Source: Stutzerimonas stutzeri (GTDB lineage: Bacteria > Pseudomonadota > Gammaproteobacteria > Pseudomonadales > Pseudomonadaceae). Taken from it: 64,000 bases of DNA. The DNA lies in assembly GCF_000219605.1 (NCBI RefSeq), contig NC_015740.1:3658001-3722000 (forward strand). Reading direction: 5' to 3'. This document shows, in pieces, positions 1-32,362 of the stretch. A model generated the notes under the pieces. It was not told where the DNA came from. It was given only the letters and a program-made list of their open reading frames with translations, and searched no databases. Numbering within the stretch: the first letter of the stretch is position 1; every line of letters starts with the position of its first letter. Both the position numbers and the translations under genes were made by a program.

Positions 1-13
1 CACATTACGTCGC
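1..13. promoter_or_regulatory. Partial palindromic operator cut by the window edge
   Basis: The first 13 bases, CACATTACGTCGC, fit the right-hand part of the GCGACA-N5-TGTCGC palindrome found six more times in this window: CA, a 5-base spacer, then CGTCGC. Read from the other strand it closely resembles the copy at 13694-13710. The gap to the ATG at 57 is 43 bases, the same spacing as at the other copies. The inference predicts that the four bases just outside the window are GCGA or close to it. Confidence 0.5.
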
Positions 14-56
14 AATGACCCATCACAATACCTCCATAGTCACAGGAGGACTCGCC

Positions 57-2228
57 ATGCCAAAGCCTACTCGCAAATCCGGCCCCCACAGTCACGATAC
101 ATGCCCGCTGGCTATAGCGTGGATGTTCAAGTTGATGCTCGACTGTTCTGGCCATCGTGGCTTTATCAACCACTGCTGCTTCAGTGATGATGATGTCGCC
201 CGTGAGCTGGGGGTCTACTGGCTGATTGAAGATGACGACAGTGAAGAGGAAGACGCGGTGCCGGTACCGGTCTTTCTCACCCATAGATCCGGGCCCTCGA
301 AAAAAGCTCGCAAACCTAGCTTCCACGAACGCACGCTGGCCGCGCTGCGTGCGGAGCGCAAGCTTTTCGACAAAGCCTTCCCTAACCCCTCACTGCCAGA
401 CAACCTCCAGGCAAATCTGGAGAATCTCGCGCTGCTAATTGGTCTGGATGAAATTGAGCAGAAGCTGATCGGCTTCTGCTCATTGATGAATACTGACACT
501 CTGCTGGACGACTGTTGCAACCAGCTCGGCTACATCGGCTTTAACCGCCTAACGAGGGTGCTGAGCATCCTGCTGGACGTCCCGCAGAATGACTTGCGCG
601 TACGGCTGTCGGGAGAGGGGCGCCTGGTGCAGTCGGGCTTGATTGAAACCAACCTGCGCAGCAGTGCGCGAAATCACGTGTCTGATTTGTTGGGCTTCAA
701 CAACAAAGACCTACTGTTTTCAGTGCGTCACCATCAGGGCAGTGCCATCGGACTCTTTCAGAGCGCCTTTCGTCCGACCCCTGATAGCTTGTTGTGTGCC
801 GATGACTTTACCCACCTCAGTGTACCCCTGAATATCGCCCGCCCCTATCTGCAACAGGTACTGGAGGAAAAGAAGCTGGGGGTGAACATTCTGATCTATG
901 GCCCGCCCGGCACAGGCAAAAGTCAGCTCACCCGCATGCTGGCAAACGAACTATGCGCCGAGCTCTATGAGATTGCCTGCACGGATAACAATGGCGATCC
1001 GATTGATCGCCGCGGACGGCTGTGCGCCCTTCGCTCAGCGATGTCCGTACTCGGCCAGCAAAAGACGCTGCTGGTGCTGGATGAGATTGAAGATCTGTTT
1101 AGTGGCAGCAGCGAGCTGGCCATGCTGGCCGGCCAGGAGCGGCAGAAGGGCTGGATCAATCGCATGCTGGAGGAGAACCCCATCCCCTGCTTTTGGCTCA
1201 CCAATAACATTCATGCGCTGGACAATGCCTATATTCGGCGCTTCGACCTTGTTCTCAGGCTGGAAAACCCACCGCGGCGGCAGCGTGAGAACATCATTCG
1301 CAGCGCCAGCCACAATCAGCTCAGCCAGCCCTTGATCGACAAGCTGGCGGACCACGAGCAGTTGATGCCAGCCATCATCACACGGGCGATGAGCGTGGCG
1401 AGTATTCAGGATCAGACAAACGCGGCCAACCTGGACACCACTGTTGAGTTCCTGGTCAATGCCACGCTGCAAGCCCAAGGCTTTCCGCGTCTCGGCCAGG
1501 GCCGCATGCATGCCTTGCCTACGTTTTACAGCCCTGAACTGGCCAATACCGATATGCCACTCGATCAGCTCTTAGGTGGGCTGCGTGATCATGGCGAAGC
1601 GCGCCTATGCTTTTACGGCCCTCCCGGTACCGGCAAGACCGCGTTTGGGCATTGGCTGGCGCAGCAACTCGGCAAGCCACTGTTGACCCGCCGCGCATCC
1701 GACCTGATTTCACCTTATGTGGGAATGACCGAGCAAAACTTCGCCCGAGCATTTGAGCAGGCCAACGACGATGATGCGATCCTGCTGCTCGATGAGGTGG
1801 ATAGCTTTCTGCAGGACCGGCGCAACGCTCGGCATAGCTGGGAGATCAGTGCGGTAAACGAAATGCTGACACAGATGGAAAGCTACCGCGGCCTATTCAT
1901 CGCCTCCACCAACCTGATGGACAACCTCGACGAAGCAGCACTGCGACGCTTCGACTTAAAGATTAGTTTTGGCTACCTCACTGCCGAGCAAATCACTCAA
2001 TTGCTTCGCCAGCATCTACACCAGATGGGCTTGAAGAAACCGGACAGCCTTAAGCTAGCCCGGCTACTCAGACAAAGTTGCCTTACACCGGGTGATTTTG
2101 CACTGGTGGCCAGACGCGCTCGCTTCAACCCATTCACGGACGCCAATCAAGTGATTGATGCGCTGCTGGCTGAGAGCAGCCTGAAAAGTGCCAGCAATAT
2201 GAGAGCCATTGGCTTTGCCGAGTGGTAG
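57..2228 (+). CDS. Tandem AAA+ ATPase (two AAA domains)
   Basis: The start is the ATG at 57, seven bases after AGGAGG; an upstream in-frame ATG at 15 lacks such a site. The 723-residue protein has two AAA+ modules. The first has Walker A GPPGTGKS at about residue 282 and Walker B LLVLDEIEDLF. The second has GPPGTGKT at about residue 521 and Walker B ILLLDEVDSFL, with arginine-bearing RRFDL segments after each. About 270 N-terminal residues are unrecognised and may bind a partner. This Cdc48-like double-ring layout suggests a cytoplasmic protein-remodelling or unfolding ATPase. A WYL regulator follows on the same strand and a probable palindromic operator lies upstream. The specific role is unknown; defence is inferred from context only. 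Confidence 0.8.
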   Translation: MPKPTRKSGPHSHDTCPLAIAWMFKLMLDCSGHRGFINHCCFSDDDVARELGVYWLIEDDDSEEEDAVPVPVFLTHRSGPSKKARKPSFHERTLAALRAERKLFDKAFPNPSLPDNLQANLENLALLIGLDEIEQKLIGFCSLMNTDTLLDDCCNQLGYIGFNRLTRVLSILLDVPQNDLRVRLSGEGRLVQSGLIETNLRSSARNHVSDLLGFNNKDLLFSVRHHQGSAIGLFQSAFRPTPDSLLCADDFTHLSVPLNIARPYLQQVLEEKKLGVNILIYGPPGTGKSQLTRMLANELCAELYEIACTDNNGDPIDRRGRLCALRSAMSVLGQQKTLLVLDEIEDLFSGSSELAMLAGQERQKGWINRMLEENPIPCFWLTNNIHALDNAYIRRFDLVLRLENPPRRQRENIIRSASHNQLSQPLIDKLADHEQLMPAIITRAMSVASIQDQTNAANLDTTVEFLVNATLQAQGFPRLGQGRMHALPTFYSPELANTDMPLDQLLGGLRDHGEARLCFYGPPGTGKTAFGHWLAQQLGKPLLTRRASDLISPYVGMTEQNFARAFEQANDDDAILLLDEVDSFLQDRRNARHSWEISAVNEMLTQMESYRGLFIASTNLMDNLDEAALRRFDLKISFGYLTAEQITQLLRQHLHQMGLKKPDSLKLARLLRQSCLTPGDFALVARRARFNPFTDANQVIDALLAESSLKSASNMRAIGFAEW

Positions 2229-2333
2229 ATCCTGGAAGGTTAGGCAGCCTTGCGGTTGCTGAGCCTGCTGCTGATTTGTTGGTGTCAGGGCATCCCTATG
2301 ATGCAGTTGCTTGGAGTACCGGGGCTGGGCATG

Positions 2334-3389
2334 ATGCCAATTAGAAACCCCCAGACAAGGATGCCCGCTGTGCCATCAGCCACCAGCCGCAGCACACTGA
2401 CCCGCCAATGGGAACTGCTCAAGCTGCTGCCGCCCAAGGGCCCTGGGATCACAACGCTTGAGTTACAACGCCTACTCGGTGACGCAGGGCACGAAACCAC
2501 AAAGCGCACCATTGAGCGTGACCTTGTTGAGCTTTCCAGGCTATTCCCCCTGCAATGCAATAACAAAGGCATGCCCTACGGTTGGCACTGGATGCCCGGG
2601 AAAAGCGCCGAGCTTCCTGGCATCACACTTGGCGAAGCCCTGACCTTGCGGCTAGTGGAAGGCAGCATTCGCCCCTTGATACCGGCTTTTATGCTGAAAA
2701 CGCTTGAGCCGCGTTTCAACCTGGCGAGGCAAAAGCTGGAAGCCATGAGCGAAGAAAACCCTTCGGCTCGCTGGCTGGACAAGGTGGCCAGCGTGCAACC
2801 AGAACTCACGCAAATCCCTCCAGAAATCAACGCCGATCTTCTCGACGTGATTCAGCAAGCGCTGATGAACGACACCCAGCTCAGCTGCCGCTACTACTCA
2901 GCCCACAAGAACCAATTTCACAACTTCACACTTAACCCACTGGGCCTGGTGCAGCGAGCCCATACCACTTACCTCATAGCTAGCGCCGAACCCTTCGACG
3001 ACATCCGTCAATTCGTTGTTCATCGGTTCGAAGAAGCGCGTGGATTGCCGACTCAATGCTTCAAGCCGGAAGGGTTTGACCTGCAAGACTATGTCGATAG
3101 TGGCGCCATGCAGTTTGGAACCCACCAGAAGATCAAGCTCGAAGCCTGGATCAGCGAAGGGCTCGCGCGCCTGCTGCAAGAGGCGCCCATATCCCACGAC
3201 ATGCTGCTGGTCGCAGAAGATGAAGGCTCACGACTAACCGCGACGGTGAATGACAGCTGGGAGCTGAAGTGGTGGATTTTGTCCCACGCGGGATCCATTC
3301 AGATACAACAACCACTGGGTCTCAGAGACGAGATCCAGCAACGACTACGGGCGGCTCTAGAGCTGCATGAGCAAGTGCCTAACAGTTGA
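2334..3389 (+). CDS. WYL-domain transcriptional regulator (first copy)
   Basis: This is a DNA-binding regulator with an N-terminal winged helix (RQWELLKLLPPKG, then KRTIERDLVELSRLFPL) followed by a WYL domain (LNPLGLVQRAHTTYLIASA; DIRQFVVHRFEEA) and a C-terminal WCX-like region. WYL proteins often repress or activate defence genes by binding palindromes in response to nucleic-acid or nucleotide signals. The frame is open back to a TTG at 2250 and offers ATGs at 2331, 2334 and 2361. None has a convincing ribosome site, so the start is uncertain; 2334 is a compromise. The gene lies about 105 bases after the tandem AAA gene and is probably co-transcribed. It resembles the regulators at 6168 and 30155 in length and layout. 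Confidence 0.8.
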   Translation: MPIRNPQTRMPAVPSATSRSTLTRQWELLKLLPPKGPGITTLELQRLLGDAGHETTKRTIERDLVELSRLFPLQCNNKGMPYGWHWMPGKSAELPGITLGEALTLRLVEGSIRPLIPAFMLKTLEPRFNLARQKLEAMSEENPSARWLDKVASVQPELTQIPPEINADLLDVIQQALMNDTQLSCRYYSAHKNQFHNFTLNPLGLVQRAHTTYLIASAEPFDDIRQFVVHRFEEARGLPTQCFKPEGFDLQDYVDSGAMQFGTHQKIKLEAWISEGLARLLQEAPISHDMLLVAEDEGSRLTATVNDSWELKWWILSHAGSIQIQQPLGLRDEIQQRLRAALELHEQVPNS

Positions 3390-3813: not shown

Positions 3814-4440
3814 TCATGATTTATTTGAATTTAGAACAACTCGTATAAATGAGCGGAGCTCTGCAAAACCCTCGGTACGTGTATGGCATCGGTCGAGATA
3901 ATGACCTTTAATGCCAAATTTAGTTGGCCCATCCCGGTCACACTGCTGTGAGTCTCCGATCATCCATGTCTCATGGGCAGCGACGCCGAGTTGGTCAATC
4001 ACGTACCGGTAGATCCTAGTGTCTGGCTTCAGCGCTCCAACCTCGAAACTGTAGCCGTATCCGTCCAGGCCGGGAAAGAGACGTTCTATCGGCTCCCGGT
4101 ACGGAAGGGCGAGGTTCGAGCAGATCGCGACTTTTATGCCCGCTGACTGCAGTGCTTCGATAGCTAGCAGTGCGTCCTCGTAGGGTTCGATACGCTGGAG
4201 CTCTGAATCTAGCTCTGCTTGAATCCGCTCCAGCTCAGAGGGCAAAAGTGCGATTCCGAAATGAGCCGCCGCCGCTTCAAGGCTCAGCGGATTCGTCATA
4301 ATGATCTTGGCATCGTCAGCACGAACGCCTCGACCTCGCAGCCTACCAATCTTCAGTACCTGCCTGTAGGGATGGCAGCCTTTGTGGATTTTCAGGACAG
4401 TTCCAAAGGCATCGAGAATCACGGCTTTTACGCGGGGCAC
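3814..4440 (-). CDS. HAD-superfamily hydrolase
   Basis: The 208-residue protein has the four HAD motifs: DAFGTV near the N terminus (nucleophile aspartate), ICSNLA, the lysine segment GALKPDTRIY, and MIGDSQQCD. HAD enzymes of this size remove phosphate or halide from small molecules; the substrate cannot be read from sequence. I place the start at a GTG (4438-4440) preceded by AGGA, because the HAD fold begins immediately there. The frame stays open upstream to 4689 but that part has no recognisable content. It lies 242 bases downstream of a tyrosine recombinase on the same strand. The 3' end abuts the IS3 relic. Confidence 0.7.
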   Translation of the reverse strand: MPRVKAVILDAFGTVLKIHKGCHPYRQVLKIGRLRGRGVRADDAKIIMTNPLSLEAAAAHFGIALLPSELERIQAELDSELQRIEPYEDALLAIEALQSAGIKVAICSNLALPYREPIERLFPGLDGYGYSFEVGALKPDTRIYRYVIDQLGVAAHETWMIGDSQQCDRDGPTKFGIKGHYLDRCHTRTEGFAELRSFIRVVLNSNKS

Positions 4441-4682
4441 GGGTATTCCTATCTGAGCGTTAGGGACAACCTGATCTTCGCCGAATTGCCTGGCTTGTTC
4501 TACGCCTGTCCTGTTTTCCCCGGAGCAGCCAGCCAAGACCGAGCGACTGATGAGTACGCTGGACACCATTAACGGACGCTGGGGACGAGGGACGCAGCGG
4601 CCGAGGCGCCCGGCCAAAACAGCCGAACGGAGCATTCGACGGGAGAGATCTACTGAAGGTCGACGCCCGGTGAGCTCGACAA

Positions 4683-5552
4683 TCAGCAATCAATACGCAT
4701 GGCCTTCGCACGAGATCGAGCGTATGCAGCATGTGTTGTTCGAACTTTCGATAAGTCTGCTTCGCACGCAGGCCTGACCTGAACAGCATCGGCGCGGCCA
4801 AATCGTTTATCACCATATCGAGCAATAGAGTCCGTCGCTTGATGACCCATCACATAAGCAATTTCGACCCGCGACAGTCCCGATGCCTTGAGGTTTGATC
4901 CGAACTGGTGTCGCAACGTGTACATACTCGGCACCTTTTTACGAGGAAAGGTCTCAAGAGCCGCGCGATGGATCGCTATTCGGATTGAGTCCAAGCTCCT
5001 GCCTTGAGAATGGAAAGCCTCAAGAGCATTGCTTACCAGCCTGCAGAAATCCTCACTGGCTTCAAGCACTCGGTCAGCACCACGCAGACCGCCATGGCTG
5101 TGTTTCGCGCCAGGAATCACGATGCGATTGCCATTGACGCTGATGCCACTGAGTTCACAAGGGCGCGCGCCTGTCATACTGATCAACAAAAGGGCCCCCG
5201 CCTCAACCACCTGCTCCTTTGCTAACAGCTCCTTGACCCAGCGCCCAAGCTCTTCATCAGAAATTCTCTGCCGCCGAGCCTGCTGGCGTTTGCGAGGCAG
5301 GCCCAAAACGGTAACAGGGTTGAGTGTCCGATTGATTTCCTGGGCAATCCAGAAGTGATTCCGGAGCTTTTGATCCAGCGCGAGTGCATTGCGCAACCGC
5401 CTGAAATAGTCGGGCCGATATTCAGGCGCAGCCCTCAATAAAGCACCAATGATATTCAGCTCATTTAGCTCACTGACCGGGATGCCAGGCAGGCGCGTTT
5501 CGTAGAAGTGGCTGGCTAGTGAGCGGTAAGCATTTTGGGTCTCTGTGTTCAT
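4683..5552 (-). CDS. Tyrosine recombinase / phage-type integrase
   Basis: The 289-residue protein carries the tyrosine recombinase catalytic core: arginine in TGARPCELSGI, a YTLRHQFGSNL box in which tyrosine stands where HxxR recombinases usually have histidine, MGHQ, and the nucleophile tyrosine in IARYGDKRFG. The N-terminal 100 residues would be the core-binding region. It is a candidate for mobilising part of this island or for a resolution function. No attachment site is visible beside it. The ORF begins with an ATG at 5552; the 326 bases upstream (5553-5878) are AT-richer and hold no gene, only the operator at 5815. Confidence 0.75.
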   Translation of the reverse strand: MNTETQNAYRSLASHFYETRLPGIPVSELNELNIIGALLRAAPEYRPDYFRRLRNALALDQKLRNHFWIAQEINRTLNPVTVLGLPRKRQQARRQRISDEELGRWVKELLAKEQVVEAGALLLISMTGARPCELSGISVNGNRIVIPGAKHSHGGLRGADRVLEASEDFCRLVSNALEAFHSQGRSLDSIRIAIHRAALETFPRKKVPSMYTLRHQFGSNLKASGLSRVEIAYVMGHQATDSIARYGDKRFGRADAVQVRPACEADLSKVRTTHAAYARSRAKAMRIDC

Positions 5553-5814: not shown

Positions 5815-5831
5815 GCGACAGGTTCTGTCGC
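5815..5831. promoter_or_regulatory. Palindromic operator upstream of the Zorya-like operon
   Basis: GCGACAGGTTCTGTCGC is a perfect 6-bp inverted repeat with a 5-base spacer. It ends 47 bases before the ATG of the zinc-ribbon gene that opens the six-gene operon. It is one of seven related sites in the window. Binding by a WYL regulator is inferred, the best local candidate being the protein encoded two genes downstream. The rest of the 5553-5878 gap shows nothing else I can name. Confidence 0.65.
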
Positions 5832-5878
5832 TATAACCGGGTAATGTCCTCTGCAAGCGCTACGCAAAGGAGACTCGT

Positions 5879-6166
5879 ATGAGAACAGCTATGACCCACT
5901 GCTGCCGCCATTGCGCATGGCAGCAGACGATGGTGCTCCACGATGGGGATAGCACCACAAAAGAGTGCTTCGATCACTGCCCTTGGTGCCGCTCGCCAGA
6001 GCTTGTTGAACGCCGAGCAACCCACCTAGAGGCCCTAGCGGCTAGTTTCGCTCGTTCGGGCTACGGTGTTTATCGCCGGAGTGGCAAATCGCCACTTAAA
6101 GGGTTAGATTCGTCATGTAAATGGCGCCAACAAAGCGCACCCATTTCAGTACGACAGGGAAGTTAA
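5879..6166 (+). CDS. Small zinc-ribbon protein, first gene of the Zorya-like operon
   Basis: The start ATG follows AAAGGAG with seven-base spacing. The 95-residue product has two cysteine pairs, HCCRHC near residue 8 and HCPWC near residue 33, forming a likely zinc ribbon, and then a basic, low-complexity C terminus. It ends one base before the WYL gene, so the two are probably translationally linked. A second small CxxC protein at 12998 sits behind the same palindrome with the same spacing. The two may be related accessory proteins, such as nucleic-acid-binding or partner-recruiting factors. Function unknown. Confidence 0.6.
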   Translation: MRTAMTHCCRHCAWQQTMVLHDGDSTTKECFDHCPWCRSPELVERRATHLEALAASFARSGYGVYRRSGKSPLKGLDSSCKWRQQSAPISVRQGS

Positions 6167-6167: not shown

Positions 6168-7235
6168 ATGTCCGAAGCTAAGGACACGCTCCTGAGACTT
6201 ATCGCGCTGCTGCGCCTTATACCACGAGCACCAGGCCGCATTGCGACCACAACCTTGCTAGAGAAACTCAAGGATGATGGTTTCTCAGTAAGTCTGCGCA
6301 CAGTTCAACGCGACCTTGACCGACTGTCGATCCCATTTGCACTGCAGCGTGACGAGAGCGCCCCATCATTTCGCTGGAGCCTTTCGGAAAATGCACCTAT
6401 CGACTTGTCGGCCATGGACACTCCCACGGCACTGGCACTGTACCTCGCGGAAAGCCACCTAAAGACACTACTACCACAGAGCGTTCTGGATCAGCTCGGC
6501 CCCCAATTCCGTATGGCCCGTGATTACCTCGACAACTTGGAAAACAATGGCCTGGCGCACTGGGCTCGCAGGGTTAGAGCCCACCCAAACGGCAAGTCCT
6601 TGCAACCAGCACAAATTTCCTCGCAGGTCTGGAAGCAGACCTCCAGTGCCCTGCTGGAACACAAACAACTGCAGATCAACTACCTGAGCCGCAGCAAAAG
6701 CGAGCTCAAGCAGCTATTGATCCACCCCGCTGGACTAGTCTCGCGCCACGCTATTAGCTACCTGATCGGCAGCGTCGACGGCTATGGCGACCTACGACAG
6801 TTCGCTCTGCACCGCATCCGTCAAGCTGAGTGCTTGGACGCAGCAGCCCGCACCCATGATGACTTCGAGATCGATATCTACATACGCCAAGAGCTCAATA
6901 CCACTGCAGCTATTGAGCAGATAGAGCTGGTCGCTGATGTTTCGCCGCAGATTGCCTGGTTACTTGGTGAGACGCCATTAAGCTCGCAGCAAAGTCTGGA
7001 GCCGCTTGCCAATAGCGATTGGAAGCGCCTGCAAGCCATCGTGCCGGATGATCAGGAGACACTTTGGTGGGTGTTTGGACTGGGAGAGAATGTGAGGGTG
7101 TTTGAGCCTCAGCAGTGGGCAGTGGAAATCTTCCAAAGGGCTGAAAAGCTACGGGGCTTATATGAACCTGAAGCAGTTAATAGCCAAGCAAGTAGTCTGC
7201 CGGAGCAACCTCAGTGCGGCGTTCGTACTGCTTAG
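6168..7235 (+). CDS. WYL-domain transcriptional regulator (second copy)
   Basis: The start ATG follows AGGGAAG. The 355-residue protein has a winged-helix N terminus (LRTVQRDLDRLSIPF), a central linker, and a WYL domain (LIHPAGLVSRHAISYLIGS; DLRQFALHRIRQAE), ending in a WCX-like segment rich in tryptophan (LWWVFGLGENVRVFEP). It is the second gene of the operon that ends in the MotA/MotB-type pair. The palindrome at 5815 is the obvious candidate operator for self-regulation. WYL regulators such as BrxR and CapW repress defence operons through palindromes, which fits, but binding is not shown here. Confidence 0.85.
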   Translation: MSEAKDTLLRLIALLRLIPRAPGRIATTTLLEKLKDDGFSVSLRTVQRDLDRLSIPFALQRDESAPSFRWSLSENAPIDLSAMDTPTALALYLAESHLKTLLPQSVLDQLGPQFRMARDYLDNLENNGLAHWARRVRAHPNGKSLQPAQISSQVWKQTSSALLEHKQLQINYLSRSKSELKQLLIHPAGLVSRHAISYLIGSVDGYGDLRQFALHRIRQAECLDAAARTHDDFEIDIYIRQELNTTAAIEQIELVADVSPQIAWLLGETPLSSQQSLEPLANSDWKRLQAIVPDDQETLWWVFGLGENVRVFEPQQWAVEIFQRAEKLRGLYEPEAVNSQASSLPEQPQCGVRTA

Positions 7236-7262
7236 AGCTTCATGAAATATTCAGGAGTCCAA

Positions 7263-8273
7263 ATGAAAAGTTCCAATGATTGCAGTCAGCCTTTGACCGA
7301 TCCAGTTCTAGACTCAGCTCAAACTCCTGACAGCCCTCCTATGCGTGAAAATACGCCTAAAAAAACGTTGGGTGTAACGCCCGAACTATCAGCATTAACA
7401 CTTCAACCCCGCTTCAACCTGTCTCAGGATGTCATTCTGTCCCAGAAAACTCGTCTGCAGTTGGATGAGTGCTTAGCTCGCCTGAGATACCACAATAAAA
7501 TTTACCAAGAGTGGGGGTTTTCGGCAGTTGACCCTATGGGTATGACCGCCATTCTGAATTTTTATGGCCCTCCAGGCACCGGTAAAACACTTTGTGCGGA
7601 GGCCCTTGCTGGGCAACTGGGGCTGCCTTTTATGTCTTTAGGCATCGCTGAGTTGGAAAGCAAATTCATGGGCGAAACCGCTAAGAACATCCAGGCGGCC
7701 TTTGAGCAAGCACGCGATACCGGAGCACTACTGTTCTTCGATGAGGCCGATACCTTGTTGGGCAAGCGCCTGTCTTCAGTTACCCAGGGGGTAGATAACG
7801 AGGTCAACGCTATGCGTTCCACCTTGCTGATAGAACTGGAGCGCTTCGAAGGTATTGTGGTGTTCGCCACCAACTTCGCGAAAAACTACGATGAAGCATT
7901 TCGCAGCCGTATCGGCTACCACATTGAGTTCAGCCTCCCTGACCTAGAAGCACGCCGTCGTCTTTGGGATCGTTTTTTAGTTTCAGGGATTCCTCTCAAA
8001 GAAGGTCGAGAGACTCTTCTCGACTGCGTCAGTTCACGCTCCGAGGGGTTGTCGGGCCGAGAGATTCGCACTTGTATGCGACTTGCACTACCCAAGGCAT
8101 TTCTTGCTGCGGAGCGTGATAGTGAAGATCCCTTGCTGCATTCAGATCATCTTTTAGCAGCCATTGATGAAGTGCTGGCAAGCCACGAGCAAGTAGCAAC
8201 TTCCAACAAATCTAATAAAGCGCATTCTGCGCAAGAAACCGCCAGAGCCAAGGCTCTGCTAGGCATTCAATAA
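7263..8273 (+). CDS. AAA+ ATPase of the Zorya-like operon
   Basis: The start ATG at 7263 follows CAGGAG with good spacing and is preferred over the ATG at 7242. The 336-residue protein has a single AAA+ domain: Walker A GPPGTGKT at residues 102-109, Walker B ALLFFDEADTLLGKR, sensor-1 FATNF and an arginine-bearing AFRSRIGYH segment. This VPS4/spastin/FtsH-like type works as a hexameric remodelling ring. The operon position between a WYL regulator and a MotA/MotB-type pair suggests it remodels or gates the amphipathic protein or the motor complex. Known Zorya types use ZorC/D, ZorE or ZorF/G instead, so an AAA+ partner is unusual. Defence role inferred. Confidence 0.8.
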   Translation: MKSSNDCSQPLTDPVLDSAQTPDSPPMRENTPKKTLGVTPELSALTLQPRFNLSQDVILSQKTRLQLDECLARLRYHNKIYQEWGFSAVDPMGMTAILNFYGPPGTGKTLCAEALAGQLGLPFMSLGIAELESKFMGETAKNIQAAFEQARDTGALLFFDEADTLLGKRLSSVTQGVDNEVNAMRSTLLIELERFEGIVVFATNFAKNYDEAFRSRIGYHIEFSLPDLEARRRLWDRFLVSGIPLKEGRETLLDCVSSRSEGLSGREIRTCMRLALPKAFLAAERDSEDPLLHSDHLLAAIDEVLASHEQVATSNKSNKAHSAQETARAKALLGIQ

Positions 8274-8283: not shown

Positions 8284-9567
8284 ATGGGGTGGTTCAGTTC
8301 TTTATGTAGCGGCGTCTCTAGCTTTGTATCAAGCGCTGTCAGTACTGTCGTCAGTGTAGGCTCAAGTATTGTTAGTAAAGCACGAGATGTTGCCGGAAAA
8401 ACATTGAGTTGGATGGCCGAGAAAGCTGAGGGTTTTGTCGGTGCAGTAAAAGATGTTTGGGAAAAAACCAAACCTTTTATCCAAAACGTTATCCGTCCTG
8501 CCGTGCGGTTTGCCGCTAAATGGGCTGCTATAAACTTGCCAACCTTTCCTTGGGTTAGCACTGCATTAACTGCCTTCGATAAAGCGCTGGGCGCCCTAGT
8601 GGCGTGGGATCAGTCAGACCTCGCGAAGAAAGTCGAAGCTGCTATCAACTGGTCCATTGCTAAAGCAAAAAATCTGCGTGAAGCATGGATGGGGCCGGCT
8701 GAAACTGAAGAAGCTGAGCAGCATGAGGCGGCTCTACGTGAGGCTCGAAGCAAAGTTCGTGGTGAGGCAGCCCAAGGAATAGACCTAGCACTGTTGATAA
8801 ACCAGTACTCGCAATTAGCTACAGGCATTAAAAATGTACTGGAAAACAATGCCATCACCGACTTTCAACACTATCTACGTCTGCGTGCAGCGCAAAAACT
8901 GCTTGGCGACACTGAACTTCGCCTTGCGGAAGCTCAAGATATCAACGCCATCGACGAAGATGACTTGTTCATTACTGAAATCGCTGCAGAATTGTTAAAG
9001 GCTGACCCGCAGATCAGCGATGCCCAGACTCAACAACTGGATGAAATCATCCTGCGTCGTTTCGGCAAAAAACTGATTCCGTTCGTCTTTGAGGAGCTGA
9101 TCATAGCCTGGGGCGTGAACCTCGATGCCCTTGATAAAGAGTGGCAAAAACTCAACGCCAGTCAGGCGAAAAAGAAAACCGAGATGCGTCGCCTCGAAAC
9201 CAGCCAGCGCCTAGCCGAGCTGTCGTCGGAGGAAAGTGCACAACTCGCCAAGCTACAAACGGAGCTGCCCAAGCTAACAGCTAAGGCAGAGCAAAAGCGC
9301 AAGAAAACTAATGAAATGCGCAACTATGTATTCGCAGCCGAAGGCTTCCTGCAAATGCTGGAAAAAGAACCCGAGGAGTTCGCCGGCAAGGAATATATGC
9401 TCGAAGACAGCGCCACGGTAGGCATGTTAATAATCGACTGCGCCCAGCATGGCAAATCCTGGGAAAAACTGACACAGGATGAGCAGAGCCTCATCATCGA
9501 CTTCGCCAATATTTTTGAAGAAGCCAGCCGCGCCCGTACTGCACAAGTGGTGGAAGTTGCGCTATGA
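8284..9567 (+). CDS. Amphipathic N terminus plus coiled-coil protein, unknown
   Basis: The start ATG follows AAGGAGATAAAC. I do not recognise this 427-residue family. The first 70 residues are a serine/valine/glycine-rich amphipathic stretch (FVSSAVSTVVSVGSSIVSK) followed by tryptophan-containing helices, reminiscent of membrane-inserting or pore-forming segments. The rest is helical and charged, with a long coiled coil at about residues 285-350 (AKLQTELPKLTAKAEQKRKK). No signal peptide is evident. It sits between the AAA+ ATPase and the ZorA-like gene, overlapping the latter by ATGA. It may be the effector, kept inactive or inserted by the ATPase, but that is a hypothesis. Confidence 0.6.
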   Translation: MGWFSSLCSGVSSFVSSAVSTVVSVGSSIVSKARDVAGKTLSWMAEKAEGFVGAVKDVWEKTKPFIQNVIRPAVRFAAKWAAINLPTFPWVSTALTAFDKALGALVAWDQSDLAKKVEAAINWSIAKAKNLREAWMGPAETEEAEQHEAALREARSKVRGEAAQGIDLALLINQYSQLATGIKNVLENNAITDFQHYLRLRAAQKLLGDTELRLAEAQDINAIDEDDLFITEIAAELLKADPQISDAQTQQLDEIILRRFGKKLIPFVFEELIIAWGVNLDALDKEWQKLNASQAKKKTEMRRLETSQRLAELSSEESAQLAKLQTELPKLTAKAEQKRKKTNEMRNYVFAAEGFLQMLEKEPEEFAGKEYMLEDSATVGMLIIDCAQHGKSWEKLTQDEQSLIIDFANIFEEASRARTAQVVEVAL

Positions 9568-11498: not shown

Positions 11499-11509
11499 CG
11501 GAAACCGCC

Positions 11510-12936: not shown

Positions 12937-12953
12937 ACGACACGATCTGTCGC
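12937..12953. promoter_or_regulatory. Palindromic operator shared by HEPN and zinc-ribbon genes
   Basis: ACGACACGATCTGTCGC is a palindrome with one mismatch at the outermost base of the left arm. It lies 57 bases from the HEPN start on the left and 44 bases from the zinc-ribbon start on the right, so it could control both divergent genes. It belongs to the same site family as 5815, 13694, 27529, 30118 and 32346. Confidence 0.6.
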
Positions 12954-12997
12954 GCTGCTGCGGCACAGTCACTCTACGCACAACGTAGAGGTTATAC

Positions 12998-13693: not shown

Positions 13694-13710
13694 GCGACGT
13701 AATCTGTCGC
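13694..13710. promoter_or_regulatory. Palindromic operator separated from its gene by an IS21 element
   Basis: GCGACGTAATCTGTCGC differs from the consensus by one base in the left arm. Removing the IS21 element and one copy of its 7-base duplication places this site 51 bases before the ATG of the GYF-domain gene at 16389. That matches the spacing of the other sites, so this gene was probably the original target. Confidence 0.6.
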
Positions 13711-15479: not shown

Positions 15480-15496
15480 CCCCAAGGAATCCCACC

Positions 15497-24022: not shown

Positions 24023-27000
24023 TGGTCGCTCCCTGCGTCGGTCGGGGTGAAGTGGCCGAACAAGCCGCCATACAAGCGCTTGGCCCAGGCTGGGAACTGG
24101 CCGCTTGCGCACAGTTGGTCGAAGTCGGGGTAAGCCCGCCGCTGGGCGAACGAGCGCTGCACCTCGCCCTCGACCGTGTAGCTACCTTCGTAGGTTTCAC
24201 GCGCCTTGGCGTAGGCCGCCTCGCCGTTGTCACTGTTCTCCCCGCCCGCAGCCAACCAGACGAAAGCACTTTTGCAGGCCACCGGCAGCGGCTCCTTCAT
24301 GCCCGCCACCCAGGCTTCGAGCAGCGCTTGCAACTGTTGCTGCGCCTGTTGCGCGGGCACTGGCTGGAACACCACGTCCCCATTCAAGCCCACCAGAATC
24401 GTCGTGCAGGCAGGCCCGTTCAACTGCAACGCCAGGTGCCGCAACCAAGGCCGCACCAAGTGGTGCCAGCAATAGCTGTCGTCGGTGCACAGCTTTTTGC
24501 TGTCCAGTTGCAGGTAGGCTCGCTCATCCAACGCATTGCGGCGAATGCCACCCAGCCAGTCCTTGAGGCCGGGAAGCTCGTCGGTGGCGTCGATAACGGC
24601 AGCGCTCTGGCCCTCTTCCAGCTCAGGCCAGGCTTGCAGTTGCGCGTGGTAGCGCGCCAGCAGGCCCGGCATCGGCCCCACCAGCGCCGAGGCGCTCAAG
24701 GTGCCGAAGCCGCCCAGCGGCAAGGCGCCCTCGCGTTGCAGGCGCTGCACTTGCAGGCCCAGTTCGGTCGCGGCCTGTTCGGGGTCGTACGCCTCCTCTA
24801 CCCAGCGCTTTAGCGCCTGGGTGAGCCTGTCCTGGTGCTGCCAGTTTTCCAGGCCATCGAGCTGGAAGGCTTCGTCATCGCGGTTGACCAACTCGTCGTC
24901 ATCGAAATTGACCTTCAAGCGCTGGGTGAAGAAGGCGCCCACCGGGTCGCGTACGAACTCGGAAAGTTGGCGCAGGTTCAACGGTGTGTCCTGAACCGGC
25001 GCGGGCAAGCGCTCGCCTTCTGGCTGCAAGGCATGTTCGTCGTGCACCTCGCGCCACTCGCTGGAATAGGTGAACAAGCCATCAGGCCCCGGCTGGTTAG
25101 CGAAGTACGCGGCGCTGAAGGGTTGTAGCGGGTGCTCCTGGGTCAGTGCGGGCAGCAACGGTTGGCCGCTGGCCGAGCGCCAGCCGTTGGCCAGGTGGTC
25201 GCGTAGCTGGCCGATCAGCACCGAGGGCACGCGCTCGCTGTTGTCGCGAATATTACGGCCCACCCAGCTCACATACAGTTGCTTGCGAGCCGAGAGCAGG
25301 GCTTCGAGCAGCAGGTAGCGGTCATCTTCACGTCGCGACCGGTCACCTGGGCGATAGTCGTTGCGCATCAGGTCGAAATCGACCGGCGATTGCTGGCGCG
25401 GGTAATCGCCATCGTTCATGCCCAGCAGGCAAACCACCTTGAACGGAATCGCCCGCATCGGCATCAGGGTGCAGAAGTTCACCGCACCGGCCAGAAAACG
25501 CTGCGACAAGCCACCGTCCTCGATGCCGCTGAGCCAGGCTTCGTGCACCACGCTCAGCGGCAGTGGCTGCGCGAACTGCGCCAGCTCGCAGGTGCGCAGC
25601 CAACCTTCAAGCAGCTTGAGCAACTGGTTGAGCAGCAACTCTTCGGCATCGCTCTCCGAGCGGAAGAACACCTTCAACAAGGCTTGCAGGCGCTCGGCCC
25701 ACTGCACGGGTGTGGCCGGTTGCTGAAGCTCCTGAAGAGCGACTTCCAAGTGGTCGAGCAAGGTCAGCAGCGGGCCGGCCAGGGCCGCTTCCAGCCCCGA
25801 CACTTCATCGTAGGGCTCGATGCCGTTGAGCTCAGGCCCACGCCCAACGGCGTAGCCCAGCAGCATGCGGCGCATGCCGAAGCGCCAGGTGTTCTGCTCC
25901 AGGCCCTGCGGCATACCCAGGCTTTCGCGCTGTTGGGCATCCAGCCCCCAGCGCACCCCGGCGCCCTCGATCCAGCGCTGCAGGGTCGGCACGTCCGCTT
26001 CGTTGATCGCGAAACGTGCGCGCAGGGCCGGCACGTCCAGCAGGTCGAGAATGTCGCTGGCAGCGAAGCGGCTGTGGGGCAGCTTGAGCAGGTGCTCCAG
26101 CGCGATCAGCAGCGGCTGGCGACCGCGTTGGCCTTGGTCGGACACGGTGAAGGGCAAGTAGCGCGGGTCGTGACGCGGCACCTGTCCGAACACCGCTTCT
26201 ATATGCGGGGTGTAGGCGTTGATGTCCGGCACCATCACGATCACATCGCGCGGGCTCAATTGTGGGTCGGCGCTGAAGCGGGCGAGCAGTTGGTCGTGCA
26301 GCACTTCCACTTCGCGCTGCATGCTGTGCACCACGTTAAAACGCAGCGAGCGGTCGGCACTAACCTCTACCGGGTCCCAGGTTTCGCGGCTTTCCGCCAA
26401 AGGGCGCAGTTCGAGAATGTCGCTTTGCAACTGGCCTAGCAGGGTTGTGGTATCCGGCTCGGTAAACAGGTCGATACGCCCGCCATTGAGGCCGTCGAGC
26501 AGGTGGCGATAGCTGCCGGGTTCGTCGTGCTGGTCGAGCAGGTTGATATAGTCGCGCCCCTGCTTGCCCCAGGCAGCGAGCAAGGCTTGGCCATGCTCGT
26601 TCGCTACGGTGCCAACCTCTCGGGCAGGCTGGCGACGGTAGTGGTGCGCCAGCAGGTCTTTATCGGCAACGATGTCGCCCCAGTGGTGGCGGCAAGGGTT
26701 GTGCACGCACAACAGCACTTGGCTGTAGCGGGAAAGCTCCTTCAGCGCTTCAAGCACTTGTGCGGGCATCGAGGAAATACCGAACACCACAACTCGGCGT
26801 GGCAGCCCCTTCGGCGCCTGGGCGGCGCTGCGCAGGTGGGCGACGAAGCGTTTGTGCACCCCAGCGCGGCTTTGCTCAAGCGCGCCTTCGCCTACGTCTG
26901 CCAGTACCTCGCGCCATAGCTGCGCCTGCCACAGGTTCGGCGCATCCAGCGGCTGCGCAGTGCCCTTGATGTGCCGCAGTTGATCGCGCCCGACAGCCCA

Positions 27001-27486
27001 GTCTTCCAGCCAATCGGCGCGGTACACCTGGTATTGGTCGAACAAGTCCGCCAGCCGCTCGCACAGTTGGTGCAGCTTGCGCTGTTCGTCGTCCTGTTCC
27101 AAAAAGCGCTGCAGGCTTGCGAACACCGGCTTTTCCAGCAAGCTCGGCAACAGACGCATCAGCCGCCAGCTCAGGGCGGCCTTGTCCAGCGGCGAAGACT
27201 GCGGGGTGGTTTGCGCCCCAAGCACCGAGCGATACACCTGCCACAGAAAGCGCGCGGGCAGTTGCACATCCAGCGCCGCGGCAATACCGCAGCCGCCGTT
27301 GTGCGGGTCTTCGGCCAGCGCCAGCTTCAGCCACTGGCCGATGCCATTGCTCTGCACCAGCAGCACTTCGTTCTCCAGTGGTCGCAGCGGGTGACTGCGC
27401 ATCCACTGCACCGCGAGGGCTCGCAGTTCTTCTAGATGATTGCCATGGATGACAACAAGACCAGGCTGAAGCTCCTGCATAGACAC
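24019..27486 (-). CDS. recC: RecBCD Chi-recognition subunit RecC
   Basis: The 1155-residue protein matches RecC in length and sequence (FRWQVYRSVLG-type N terminus, MNDGDYPRQQSPVDFDLM, RREDDRYLLLEALLSAR). RecC splits the DNA strands and scans for Chi through inactivated helicase and nuclease folds. The start is a GTG at 27486 or an ATG at 27480, both behind AGAGGG. It is the first gene of the recCBD operon, and the palindrome at 27529 lies about 42-48 bases upstream, the same spacing as for the island genes. This suggests that the operon shares their regulation. Confidence 0.95.
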   Translation of the reverse strand: MSMQELQPGLVVIHGNHLEELRALAVQWMRSHPLRPLENEVLLVQSNGIGQWLKLALAEDPHNGGCGIAAALDVQLPARFLWQVYRSVLGAQTTPQSSPLDKAALSWRLMRLLPSLLEKPVFASLQRFLEQDDEQRKLHQLCERLADLFDQYQVYRADWLEDWAVGRDQLRHIKGTAQPLDAPNLWQAQLWREVLADVGEGALEQSRAGVHKRFVAHLRSAAQAPKGLPRRVVVFGISSMPAQVLEALKELSRYSQVLLCVHNPCRHHWGDIVADKDLLAHHYRRQPAREVGTVANEHGQALLAAWGKQGRDYINLLDQHDEPGSYRHLLDGLNGGRIDLFTEPDTTTLLGQLQSDILELRPLAESRETWDPVEVSADRSLRFNVVHSMQREVEVLHDQLLARFSADPQLSPRDVIVMVPDINAYTPHIEAVFGQVPRHDPRYLPFTVSDQGQRGRQPLLIALEHLLKLPHSRFAASDILDLLDVPALRARFAINEADVPTLQRWIEGAGVRWGLDAQQRESLGMPQGLEQNTWRFGMRRMLLGYAVGRGPELNGIEPYDEVSGLEAALAGPLLTLLDHLEVALQELQQPATPVQWAERLQALLKVFFRSESDAEELLLNQLLKLLEGWLRTCELAQFAQPLPLSVVHEAWLSGIEDGGLSQRFLAGAVNFCTLMPMRAIPFKVVCLLGMNDGDYPRQQSPVDFDLMRNDYRPGDRSRREDDRYLLLEALLSARKQLYVSWVGRNIRDNSERVPSVLIGQLRDHLANGWRSASGQPLLPALTQEHPLQPFSAAYFANQPGPDGLFTYSSEWREVHDEHALQPEGERLPAPVQDTPLNLRQLSEFVRDPVGAFFTQRLKVNFDDDELVNRDDEAFQLDGLENWQHQDRLTQALKRWVEEAYDPEQAATELGLQVQRLQREGALPLGGFGTLSASALVGPMPGLLARYHAQLQAWPELEEGQSAAVIDATDELPGLKDWLGGIRRNALDERAYLQLDSKKLCTDDSYCWHHLVRPWLRHLALQLNGPACTTILVGLNGDVVFQPVPAQQAQQQLQALLEAWVAGMKEPLPVACKSAFVWLAAGGENSDNGEAAYAKARETYEGSYTVEGEVQRSFAQRRAYPDFDQLCASGQFPAWAKRLYGGLFGHFTPTDAGSDQ

Positions 27487-27528: not shown

Positions 27529-27545
27529 GCGACACCCTGTGTCGC
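27529..27545. promoter_or_regulatory. Palindromic operator upstream of recCBD
   Basis: GCGACACCCTGTGTCGC is a perfect 6-bp palindrome with a 5-base centre, extended by one more pair on each side (T...A). Read toward recC it is GCGACACAGGGTGTCGC, differing by only one central base from the sites before the Sel1 gene and the 54-residue gene. It lies about 42-48 bases from the recC start. Confidence 0.7.
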
Positions 27546-29208: not shown

Positions 29209-30072
29209 TTAGCATACCTGTTGAATAGCAACATTCGATGCACGCAACTCTCTAGCCCACAAGCTTCCCTGGCTGATCGCCAGATCCCGCCAAAAACGAA
29301 ACAGCACCCCATCAGGATCCGGCGGGGATTCGAAGGTAGAGAAGTAAAAATCGGTAAGCTGCTCAGTCGCCAACACCTGCCCCTTCATCGCAGCCCACTG
29401 TAACCAATACAAGCCAAGCGCGGGATCATACTCAGGTGATGATTCATCCAGTGCCAACCTACCAAGCGAGAAGCACGCCATCGAGTCATGTTCCGCCGCA
29501 CCTCGCTTGTACCAACTGATGGCTTTACCATGATCGACGATGACCCCCTCATCCCCACGCTCATACAAACTCCCTAATGCTTGCGCAGCACAGGGAATCC
29601 CAGCTTCGAAAGCCTGCTCGTAATAGTCGATGGCCAACTCCGGATTGACCGGCAAGCCCTTGCCGTAATAGGCCAGCTCGGCAAGGTTGAATAGAGCCTC
29701 AGGGGCTCCCATCACTGCCGCAATCTTGAATAAGCGCCTGGCCAGCGCAGGGTTCGGCTTCAGCCTGAGACCATTAAGCCAAAACCACCCTAGATCATTG
29801 ATCGCATCCGCATCGCCCAACAGAGCCTGTTCACGCAGTTCCACATAGCGATTTCGAATTATGATCGGGTCAACCAATCCAAGAAGCGGATTTGCTCCCT
29901 TGATCTCGTGATAGTTAACACCCGCCTGCCCGCTCAGCTCCATCGCTCTCAGCGATGGCATACCGACTCCAGCATAAAGACGTTGCAATTCGTCAGGCTC
30001 AGCCAGTTCGACGTAGTCAGCTCGGGGAAGAAGGTTGTCCATAAGATTGAAGATGTCTGCAGATTTGCTCAT
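29209..30072 (-). CDS. Sel1-repeat (SLR/TPR-like) protein
   Basis: The protein, about 287 residues, contains several Sel1-like helical repeats: AINDLGWFWLNGL, ALFNLAELAYYGKGL, CAAQALGSLYERGDEG, MACFSLGRLALDES. Sel1 repeats form protein-interaction solenoids. I choose the ATG at 30070-30072 because the upstream palindrome at 30118 then has the usual 45-base spacing. The open frame extends upstream, but those codons cross the operator. It is the first gene of a probable three-gene operon. Confidence 0.7.
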   Translation of the reverse strand: MSKSADIFNLMDNLLPRADYVELAEPDELQRLYAGVGMPSLRAMELSGQAGVNYHEIKGANPLLGLVDPIIIRNRYVELREQALLGDADAINDLGWFWLNGLRLKPNPALARRLFKIAAVMGAPEALFNLAELAYYGKGLPVNPELAIDYYEQAFEAGIPCAAQALGSLYERGDEGVIVDHGKAISWYKRGAAEHDSMACFSLGRLALDESSPEYDPALGLYWLQWAAMKGQVLATEQLTDFYFSTFESPPDPDGVLFRFWRDLAISQGSLWARELRASNVAIQQVC

Positions 30073-30117: not shown

Positions 30118-30134
30118 GCGACAACCTGTGTCGC
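30118..30134. promoter_or_regulatory. Palindromic operator between the Sel1 operon and a WYL regulator
   Basis: GCGACAACCTGTGTCGC lies between divergent genes: 45 bases from the Sel1 start and only 20 bases from the WYL gene's GTG at 30155. The short right-hand distance suits autorepression of the WYL gene by blocking its promoter or first codons. Flanking T and A extend the palindrome. Confidence 0.7.
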
Positions 30135-30470
30135 ACACAAACAAGGACGGAAGTGTGGAACAGCTGCTTCGCCATGAACTCATTCTTGGCCTTCTCCCGA
30201 ACAAGGAAAGCGCTCTCGATAGCAACGCCATTCACCAACGAGTAGCCAACCAGGGTGTCCAGGTTGATAAGCGCACCATTCAGCGTGACCTGAGCGAGCT
30301 AGAACAGAAATTCCCCCATGTGCATAGCAGGCCAAAGGGAAAAGCCAAGTTGTGGTGGGCAGAAAAGTCGCTGTCGCGACTGAGCATGCTGCCGACAGAT
30401 GCAATGAACCTCGTCATGATCATGGATCACGCGGCTAGATTCGGAATGGCGGTGCAGGTTGAAAACCTAG

Positions 30471-31662
30471 GGAAACTCTGAAGAAGACTTCCTGATTTTG
30501 GCAAGATCCCCGGACTCCACTCACCGAGTTTTCCGATGAAGCAGATGACCTTCGCCGATGCCGAGTACGCCGGCAAGCGCAAGCAGACCCGCAAAGAGCT
30601 GTTCCTGATCGAGATGGATCGGGTGGTGCCCTGGAAGGGGCTGATAGCCCTGATCGAACCGCACTACCCCAAGGGTGAAGGCGGCCGTCCGGCCTATCCG
30701 CTGATGGCGATGCTGCGGGTGCATCTGCTGCAGAACTGGTTTGGCTACAGCGATCCGGCGATGGAAGAGGCGCTGTACGAGACCACTATCCTGCGCCAGT
30801 TCGCTGGGCTGAACCTGGAGCGTATCCCCGACGAAACCACCATCCTGAACTTCCGTCGCCTGCTGGAGAAACACGAACTGGCTGCCGGCATCCTGGCCGT
30901 GATCAATGGCTACCTGGGCGACCGAGGTTTGTCGCTGCGCCAAGGCACCATCGTCGATGCCACGCTGATCAATGCGCCGAGTTCGACCAAGAATAAAGAC
31001 GGCAAACGCGACCCGGAAATGCACCAGACCAAGAAGGGTAACCAGTACTACTTCGGCATGAAGGCGCACATCGGCGTGGATGACGAGTCGGGTTTGGTGC
31101 ACAGCGTAGTAGGCACTGCCGCCAACGTGGCGGACGTTACCCAAGTCGACAAGTTGTTGCATGGCGAGGAAAACGTGGTCTGCGCTGATGCCGGTTATAC
31201 CGGTGTCGAGAAGCGTGCCGAACATGATGGTCGTGAGGTGATCTGGCAGGTGGCGGCACGGCGCAGCACTTACAAGAAACTGGGCAAGAGCAGCCCGCTT
31301 TACAAAGCCAGGCGCAAGATCGAGAAGGCCAAAGCCCAGGTGCGGGCCAAGGTCGAACACCCGTTCCGGGTGATCAAGCGCCAATTTGGCTATGTGAAGA
31401 CGCGCTTCCGTGGCCTGGCAAAGAACACCGCGCAACTGGTGACACTCTTCGCGCTGTCGAATCTGTGGATGGCTCGACGACATTTACTGACGAATGCAGG
31501 AGAGGTGCGCCTGTAATGTGGAAAATGGCTGCTGCGAGGTGCTCGCGGCGGCTAAAAACACAGAAATAAGCGGGCGATCTGATCGTTTTTGATCGGTTGA
31601 CCGCTTTCAAAATCGGCGGAGGCTGAAGTCAGCCAGAAATACAGGGCTACTTCAGACCATCC
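30471..31662 (+). mobile_element. IS5-family insertion sequence
   Basis: The 1192-base element has imperfect terminal inverted repeats (GGAAACTCTGAAGAAG at the left; the right end complements GGATGGTCTGAAGTAG). It is flanked by a 4-base CTAG duplication at 30467-30470 and 31663-31666, as is usual for the IS5 group. It encodes one intact transposase and splits the WYL regulator gene. Confidence 0.92.
30536..31516 (+). CDS. IS5-family transposase
   Basis: The intact 326-residue DDE transposase has the catalytic aspartates in GTIVDATLIN and VVCADAGYTG and the glutamate in KVEHPFRVIKRQFG. An N-terminal DUF772-type region (AYPLMAMLRVHLLQNWFG) precedes the core. This is the typical single ORF of IS5-subgroup elements. 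Confidence 0.95.
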   Translation: MKQMTFADAEYAGKRKQTRKELFLIEMDRVVPWKGLIALIEPHYPKGEGGRPAYPLMAMLRVHLLQNWFGYSDPAMEEALYETTILRQFAGLNLERIPDETTILNFRRLLEKHELAAGILAVINGYLGDRGLSLRQGTIVDATLINAPSSTKNKDGKRDPEMHQTKKGNQYYFGMKAHIGVDDESGLVHSVVGTAANVADVTQVDKLLHGEENVVCADAGYTGVEKRAEHDGREVIWQVAARRSTYKKLGKSSPLYKARRKIEKAKAQVRAKVEHPFRVIKRQFGYVKTRFRGLAKNTAQLVTLFALSNLWMARRHLLTNAGEVRL

Positions 31663-32345
31663 CTAGCACCCCTGCGGGATTACGCGATATCTCTGTTGAA
31701 AGGAAACCGACCCAGCCGGGACTGCTCAGGCAAAATCATCAGTAATACCCGCTTCATTGTCCTGGAGCCAGGGCAGGTAAAATCAGAGGTGCTAGAGGTT
31801 ATTCAGCAAGCACTTCTAGATGATTCATCTATCGAAGCGCTTTATCTGAAACGCGGTGCTAGTGAGCCACGAACACTACATCTCAAGCCGCTGGGTCTTT
31901 CCTATCAAGACTCCAATATCTACCTCGTTTGTATTTTCAAAGGCTTACCCGATGGCAAACTGGCCTCTCTTCCCCTGCATCGCTTTCAATCTGCCAAGGC
32001 TACATGGGAAGACCTGAGAGCTCCTGACGGTTTTGAGATGAACTCGTTCGAGGTCAAGCGCAGCCTGATATCCCAGAAATCTGAGTACCCAACTCAACTG
32101 AAGCTGCGCATTTCTCAGACGCTCTATGAACGCCTAGACGAGAACGCGCTCACTGCCGATCAACAGCTACAGCCCACCGCTGATGGCTGGTGGCTGATGA
32201 TGGGCAGCCTGCCTCTTAGCCAGGGGCTGGAACTATGGCTATTGAGCCAGGGCGAACACCTGGAGGTTCTTGAGCCGGTTGAGCTAAGACAACAAATGGC
32301 CTTATCGGCGCATCGGATGGCCGCACTGTACGAACAAGGTTGAAT

Positions 32346-32362
32346 GCGACACAGGCTGTCGC
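32346..32362. promoter_or_regulatory. Palindromic operator upstream of the 54-residue gene
   Basis: GCGACACAGGCTGTCGC begins two bases after the stop of the interrupted WYL gene and ends 48 bases before the ATG at 32411. Read toward the gene, it differs by one base from the recC and Sel1 sites, placing the three in one subclass. Confidence 0.7.

Follow-up and report, generated by a model that had tools for sequence, protein, structure and literature searches.

Introduction

Regulators carrying a WYL domain are described in two settings: the known ones in defence repress the operons with which they are associated, and those that activate transcription belong to DNA-damage responses, as far as the accessible parts of the reports go (PMC9122588, PMC9122601, PMC13373217, PMC10693628). 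WYL-controlled defence and WYL activators are each already known, and little is known of how defence islands coordinate their systems. Here we consider a palindrome, GCGACA-N5-TGTCGC, that recurs before unrelated genes of a defence island in Stutzerimonas stutzeri, within and just beside a stretch of 64,000 nucleotides (the window; bases 3658001-3722000 of the single 4.55-Mb contig NC_015740.1). Judging from sequence and by analogy, the motif is probably the activator site of WYL proteins of the DriD/PafBC type, placed in the -35 position of the promoters of a regulon triggered by single-stranded DNA (ssDNA).

DriD of Caulobacter crescentus is an ssDNA-triggered WYL activator with the published consensus ATACGAC(X)7GTCGTAT; in the available text its sites overlap the -35 and keep a single distance to the -10, and it activates poor promoters, with a poor -35. 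The published DriD probe contains CGACA-N5-TGTCG, the same core as the island motif, and consensus and probe both contain CGAC-N7-GTCG, which the island sites match, although the outer base is G/C here and A/T in DriD. When the promoters printed in PMC12340889 are scored, that of driD/CCNA_03891 has 10 of the 12 motif letters followed after 10 base pairs (bp) by CAATCT, and that of didA has 8 of 12 followed after 10 bp by CAAGGT. The driD gene also has a divergent neighbour promoter, as does one of the island regulators (WYL3). The two systems differ in what they govern: in the part of its literature that could be consulted, DriD responds to DNA damage and governs genes of repair and division, whereas here the genes are those of a defence island that encodes three WYL proteins. 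The mycobacterial PafBC is likewise a WYL activator, and its consensus tTGTCRgtg-8nt-TannnT amounts to a half-site 10 bp from the -10, the same spacing as in the island. However, its accessible descriptions make it a fused or heterodimeric protein that contacts one half-site and binds only with RNA polymerase, and, unlike the island WYL proteins, they present it without a link to defence.

CapW and BrxR are also WYL regulators in defence loci, with palindromic or inverted-repeat sites, and BrxR has two sites in one island, which it represses. The available text describes both as repressors that bind at the -10 or downstream of it and have another helix-turn-helix (HTH); in site position and HTH they differ from the proteins considered here (PMC9122588, PMC9122601). 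RptR resembles the present case as a single regulator of a defence island with conserved DNA sites, but in the accessible part of its description it is not presented as a WYL protein, and it represses a single promoter through direct repeats. A literature search, with most subscription journals outside its reach, found neither a report of the motif as a defence-island site nor a DriD-type activator in control of a defence regulon of many operons.

Copies of the Motif in the Island and the Genome

Four copies in the window are exact (starting at 5815, 27529, 30118, and 32346) and two carry one mismatch (12937 and 13694), which bears out the six positions given in an earlier note made from the window's letters alone. 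The seventh copy suspected there at the left edge is real: it occupies genome positions 3657997-3658013 (window -3..13), with one mismatch. An eighth, which that note had missed, lies 1.15 kb left of the window (genome 3656848, window -1152) and likewise has one mismatch; an open reading frame (ORF) of 131 amino acids (aa) has its ATG 45 bp after it. From left to right these sites are called s0 to s7, and they span a stretch of 33.5 kb.

The genome scan that had been proposed as a check finds the island enriched. The whole genome holds six exact copies, four of them inside the 33.5-kb stretch, and 28 matches with at most one mismatch (exact ones included), eight of them inside this 0.7% of the genome; at the outside rate, 0.015 exact and 0.15 near matches would be expected there. 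The binomial p for 8 of 28 is about 2e-11, a value that is somewhat post hoc because the sites themselves define the ends of the stretch. Since the reversed pattern gives 22 genome matches against 28 for the motif, the enrichment is limited to the stretch and does not extend to the genome as a whole. With up to two mismatches there is no excess, either in the window (nine matches, a number reached by 7 of 100 shuffles) or in the genome (336 motif matches against 466 for the control). These looser matches were dropped as evidence because the genome counts do not favour the motif over the control.

Twenty sites with at most one mismatch lie outside the stretch, and 14 of them were inspected. Thirteen are inside open frames of 158-923 aa, by a crude measure on which the island sites too score as within open frames (61-340 aa), and the remaining one (4321072; 57 aa) precedes a recC gene. 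An exact site at 3369795 was discarded on the same crude measure, as it falls within a 417-aa open frame. A composite pattern that adds a -10-like hexamer (CGACA-N5-TGTCG, N11, YANNNT) matches exactly five times in the genome, at four sites of the island and at the one before recC. Allowing one mismatch raises the count to 15, of which eight fall on seven island sites; when two are allowed, the control is equally frequent.

A Fixed Distance to the -10 Element

At seven of the eight island sites, YANNNT stands exactly 10 bp past the site when read toward the target gene. The hexamers are CACGAT for s0; CACAAT (24-29) for s1 (GCGACACATTACGTCGC, + strand), which starts 4 bases left of the window and occupies 1-13 within it; TAATGT (5842-5847) for s2 (5815-5831, +); CACAGT (12964-12969) on the + side of s3 (12937-12953); CACTCT (13721-13726) for s4 (13694-13710, +); TAGCTT (27518-27513, - strand) for s5 (27529-27545, -); and CAACCT (32373-32378) for s7 (32346-32362, +). 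When a -35 was looked for at spacers of 15-19 bp from these hexamers, the best match to TTGACA was at most three of six bases. A site that ends 10 bp upstream of the -10 is not arranged like the operators of CapW and BrxR, which are reported to overlap the -10 or to lie downstream of it. On this sequence evidence, the likeliest reading of the geometry is an activator site that replaces the -35, not an operator that blocks transcription.

Target genes start 43-48 bp from their sites, with 57 bp to the start at 12879 beside s3 and 20 bp to WYL3 beside s6. The earlier note had given 42-57 bp and, for the WYL gene at 30155, 20 bp; these distances stand, except that between the GYF-domain gene it included and the site of that gene there is now an insertion sequence (IS) of the type IS21, about 2.6 kb long. 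The distances were then compared over 142 gene/site pairs from the loci fetched from related genomes, keeping those with an ORF start 15-110 bp from the site and a Shine-Dalgarno-like stretch, and counting an identical site plus 20 bp downstream once. Because of these filters and the single counting, window sites s1, s4, s5, and s6 (- side) are absent from the set, and they were inspected individually. Among 76 non-WYL pairs with starts at 42-60 bp, A at +12 and T at +16 occur in 58 (52 of them YANNNT), against 12 at the best other offset. The fixed -10 persists when similar sequences are collapsed at 80, 70, and 60% identity (41/54, 39/51, and 36/46). The 18 pairs with starts at 15-30 bp behave otherwise: the fixed -10 is absent from all of them, and 14 are WYL genes. 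The 20-bp distance of WYL3, taken before as an exception, is therefore better placed in this second class. The other nine WYL pairs are spread over 31-41 bp (two), 42-60 bp (four), and 61-111 bp (three).

The exact composite of site, N10, and YANNNT occurs in 129 of 298 family genomes, against 45 of 298 for the reversed control; the first count includes an argG promoter family, which is not counted as evidence. Composite matches stand at probable argG promoters in many Pseudomonas genomes, and the three that were opened (L134-L136) precede an argininosuccinate-synthase-like ORF. These were set aside as what we take to be ArgR sites.

The WYL Proteins of the Island

WYL1 (2250-3389, +; its true start is probably inside the ORF) and WYL2 (6168-7235, +) are intact, and the gene of WYL3 is split by an IS5-type element into an N-terminal piece (30155-30481, +) and a C-terminal piece (31696-32343, +). 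WYL2 is 31% identical to WYL1 and 26% to WYL3. Pfam WYL and WCX domains are found in all three, those of WYL3 in its C-terminal piece. The predicted model of WYL2 (mean pLDDT 88, pTM 0.63) has N-terminal HTH-like helices, two middle helices, and WYL and WCX parts. The three proteins have in common a helix of the form R[TS]x[QE]RDL (KRTIERDL in WYL1, LRTVQRDL in WYL2, KRTIQRDL in WYL3), from which few relatives deviate (L111, L114, L115), in place of the SRQQAS-type helix of the CapW/BrxR HTH. In 42 aligned sequences the helix arginines R44 and R48 are invariant, as are Y172, Y198, and R216; the two arginines are also R in the alignment with DriD, which is nearly full-length and, in the HTH region, weak apart from them. 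Against solved structures, a profile of the 42 relatives finds PafBC (3e-17) and DriD (8tp8, 1e-14) over almost the full length, then three unnamed WYL entries (7e-14, WYL/WCX part), BrxR (0.004, partial), and arginine-repressor HTHs (0.007-0.01). Three features of the DriD/PafBC type are present in the island: the layout of winged HTH, helical region, WYL, and WCX; sites that match the DriD target CGAC-N7-GTCG in sequence; and, at seven of eight sites, a constant spacing to a weak -10, with the site standing where a -35 would be.

The earlier note had proposed all three island regulators as likely binders. Since WYL3 is interrupted, the genome has no intact candidate binders of this clade other than the products of 2250-3389 and 6168-7235, and the proposal is narrowed to these. 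Four other WYL genes (802498, 2436491, 3653358, and 3704847) have other helices, of the SRQQAS type and labelled BrxR/CapW-type here, and none of their loci has a site at up to two mismatches within about 1.5 kb.

Both WYL classes are present in this genome: a fourth WYL gene of the window, at about 46379-47357 (+ strand; WYL domain 46847-47041), has a BrxR/CapW-like helix by our own labelling and no site nearby, and another such gene lies in the left flank, at genome position 3653358.

The Site Beside WYL Genes in Relatives

With the WYL2 protein as query, matches were found in 94 of 298 family genomes. Leaving aside the query's own locus, the best matches (58-84% identity) yielded 29 loci, here called the closest set; the site is present with at most one mismatch in 23 of them and exactly in 12. 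When palindromes were sought de novo in this set (6-mers, spacers 0-11), GCGACA-N5 was the commonest (12/29; next 5/29). More distant loci were picked by hand from the match list, mostly omitting those already fetched because these were rich in sites. The site occurs in 9 of 13 loci at 40-56% identity, in 11 of 20 at 31-36% (every match with one mismatch), and in 7 of 7 at 25-31%. Among named loci, which partly repeat the closest set, 17 of 18 have it; that of L128, at 7301, is just beyond the scanned stretch. Its carriers include Pseudomonas aeruginosa PA7, P. mendocina, P. putida 31753, Stutzerimonas nitrititolerans, Salinicola, and Kushneria. Twenty-five permuted-arm controls gave on average 0.4-0.7 sites per set, with a maximum of 4, against 12-29 observed.

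A class-wide set was assembled by profile search of 369 class genomes, of which 32, our own included, match at 1e-30, and 29 loci were taken. GCGACA-N5 is again the top 6-mer palindrome de novo (6/29 exact), and the next, TGCGAC-N7 (4/29), is the same motif shifted. The 5-mer core is exact in 8 of 29 loci and present with one mismatch in 18, where permuted arms give a mean of 0.14 loci for the exact core and a maximum of 3. The view that one regulon is read by WYL proteins is well supported by these loci, which were chosen on protein similarity. Two other parts of the earlier proposal are changed: the geometry fits an activator site better than a blocking operator, and the sites are not confined to the island.

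RecBCD and the Genus-Wide recC

The recC, recB, and recD genes of the island stand under s5. The second recC gene, behind the site at 4321072, is the one present in 56 of 56 genus genomes, so the regulon reaches beyond the island. Among recC loci from 30 genus genomes, 18 have the site, N10, and CANNNT at nearly one position before recC, with arms and CANNNT kept while spacer and N10 vary. A DriD-type WYL protein is present in 10 of the 18 genomes with the recC site and in 2 of the 12 without it (one-sided p 0.038, two-sided 0.058), a link that is only suggestive. The recC genes of two other genera (L137-L139; core or island copy) also carry the site. RecBCD produces ssDNA, the ligand of DriD and PafBC in the available descriptions, and such ssDNA may close a regulatory loop.

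A Model of the Regulon and Its Alternatives

The likeliest reading of the sequences is that the sites are activator sites of DriD/PafBC-type WYL proteins rather than operators of the CapW/BrxR type. A clade of such regulators, with WYL1 and WYL2 intact here, would bind the motif as dimers. RNA polymerase would be expected to need the bound dimer, because the site replaces the -35 and is followed after 10 bp by a weak -10 (YANNNT). If the analogy with DriD and PafBC applies, the trigger would be short ssDNA that arises when phage attacks or DNA is damaged. A single signal would in that case increase transcription of six island units with intact promoters: the 131-aa gene, AAA/WYL1, zinc ribbon/WYL2/ZorAB-like, zinc ribbon, recCBD, and the 54-aa gene. 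It would also act on the genus-wide recC and perhaps on the Sel1 operon, while a seventh promoter, that of the GYF gene, now reads into the IS21-type element. Many WYL genes start 15-24 bp from a site, through which the regulator would be able to hold its own gene in check, and the site of WYL3 (20 bp) could itself be an operator of the CapW/BrxR kind.

Several observations weigh against this reading. The fixed-place -10 is missing on either side of s6 and on the 12879 side of s3, and a third DriD promoter, that of bapE, lacks the layout at its best-scoring position and was not used. In six of the 29 loci of the closest set, L050 and the similar L029-L033 of a single genus, no site was seen within about 1.5 kb. 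None of the sites in the 31-36% group is exact, and the palindrome found most often there is CGCGAC-N7 (3/20), with a shifted core; in the 40-56% group it is TGCGAC-N7 (5/13), likewise shifted. Class-wide, 11 of 29 loci have no match to the 5-mer core even at one mismatch, and YANNNT occupies the fixed place in only 6 of the 18 that do match. Before recC, 12 of 30 genus relatives lack the site. A DriD-type WYL protein was not found in 8 of the 18 genomes with the recC site, so that another reader or a lost WYL gene must be assumed there. Finally, an ssDNA trigger does not separate activator from repressor, because CapW and BrxR also respond to ssDNA.

It is rather unlikely that the same WYL proteins instead repress their targets until ssDNA releases them from the site, in the manner of CapW and BrxR at their defence operons. 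Such a role would agree with a 2023 paper, accessible in part, by which the phage-defence WYL regulators identified so far are repressors (PMC10693628), and with the repression described for CapW (PMC9122588) and BrxR (PMC9122601) and the release by ssDNA (PMC13373217); polymerase can moreover be blocked by a site over the -35/spacer region, and many WYL genes start 15-24 bp from the site. Yet in the available text the CapW sites overlap the -10 (PMC9122588) and those of BrxR lie between promoter and gene (PMC9122601), whereas here the site is 10 bp upstream of the -10. An exact spacing is also more than a block would need, the island sites have no -35, and PafBC and DriD, the nearest named solved relatives, are activators. 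This model was considered first and was given less weight once the fixed -10 spacing had emerged. It is less probable still that the motif is read by one of the four BrxR/CapW-type WYL proteins or by an unrelated host factor. Those genes exist, and some recC sites are in genomes with no detected DriD-type WYL protein, but DriD-type loci often have a site and none of the four does; by the same measure of about 1.5 kb, the WYL1 locus (L149) also has none, because its site is more than 2 kb upstream, at the operon head.

It is very improbable that the motif recurs merely as a repeat that spreads, or as palindromes arisen by chance, with no regulatory meaning. Palindromes do spread in some genomes, and the counts at up to two mismatches are unremarkable; against this, arms and -10 are conserved across species while spacers and flanks differ, and the sites keep one fixed position before genes that are unrelated to each other. 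The arginine regulator of pseudomonads (ArgR) also has TGTCGC as a half-site, and the composite matches the argG promoter family as well. ArgR half-sites are direct repeats, however, and the island sites are inverted, precede non-arginine genes, and accompany WYL genes, which leaves very little room for ArgR as their reader.

If the motif is an activator site, the island would unite the two kinds of WYL control, with a damage-type activator in charge of many immune operons and RecBCD. We propose more tentatively that it may be a mobile, positively controlled immune regulon, in which ssDNA-sensing DriD-type WYL activators switch on unrelated island defence operons and the cell's recBCD. Its promoter code, GCGACA-N5-TGTCGC-N10-YANNNT, would be common to diverged WYL families of the Pseudomonadaceae, in part to Gammaproteobacteria, and in its core to Caulobacter; if so, a newly acquired defence cassette with this promoter would join the regulon at once. 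The code is precise enough for genome scans for new defence genes and for simple reporter tests.

Genes of the Island

From the left, an AAA ATPase gene with an IetA-like match (57-2228, +) begins with an ATG at 57, preceded by a Shine-Dalgarno-like stretch and 43 bp after s1, and heads the operon of WYL1. Between this operon and the next lie a weak phage-integrase match below the Pfam cut-off (4683-5552, -) and a HAD-hydrolase-like ORF (3814-4689, -). A 95-aa zinc-ribbon-like gene (5879-6166, +; 47 bp after s2) heads the second operon, which continues with WYL2, another AAA ATPase with an IetA-like match (7242-8273, +), and ZorA-like (9564-11498) and ZorB-like (11495-12157) genes, both +; ZorB matches its Zorya family clearly and ZorA weakly, under the NCBIfam cut-off. 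The 216-aa gene that follows (12229-12879, -) had been called HEPN, a label for which no family support was found. On the other side of s3 stands a 66-aa zinc-ribbon-like gene (12998-13198, +; 44 bp after the site). Small zinc-ribbon-like proteins, those at 5879-6166 and 12998-13198 and others in L142-L147, recur directly behind the site in 20 pairs, all 20 with the -10.

The IS21-type transposase and IstB genes (13950-16252, +) cut off the GYF-domain gene (16389-16943, +) from s4; in L120, a relative of the GYF gene starts 51 bp after its site. The recC- (24019-27480), recB- (20342-24112), and recD-like (18216-20345) genes are on the - strand, with the recC ATG at 27480, 48 bp from s5. Site s6 (30118-30134, exact) lies between WYL3 and a Sel1-repeat gene (29209-30072, -), whose ATG is about 45 bp away. 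The IS5-type transposase gene that splits WYL3 (30536-31516, +) matches DDE_Tnp_1 and DUF772. The 54-aa gene (32411-32575, +) starts 48 bp after s7, and relatives too have genes of its family directly following a site (10 pairs with the window included, nine with the -10). Members of the family (NAGPRANF...AEAQYPGY) are found there in L053, L055, L059, L064, L066, L112-L114, and L146, often beside WYL3-type genes.

Shortened, stop-containing copies of WYL3-type genes lie close to two sites each in three genomes (G180 C9:321406, G189 C10:41088, G215 C1:3723007), and a fourth genome has two copies, one with a stop (G221 C33:929 and 14972); these decayed copies look like a sign of duplication and decay of the regulator. 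ORFs of 509 and 440 aa, the same lengths as the IS21-type genes, are found left of the first site (L009 15801-18103, - strand). If they are a second IS21-type copy, a likeness judged by ORF length alone, the two copies would flank s0-s4.

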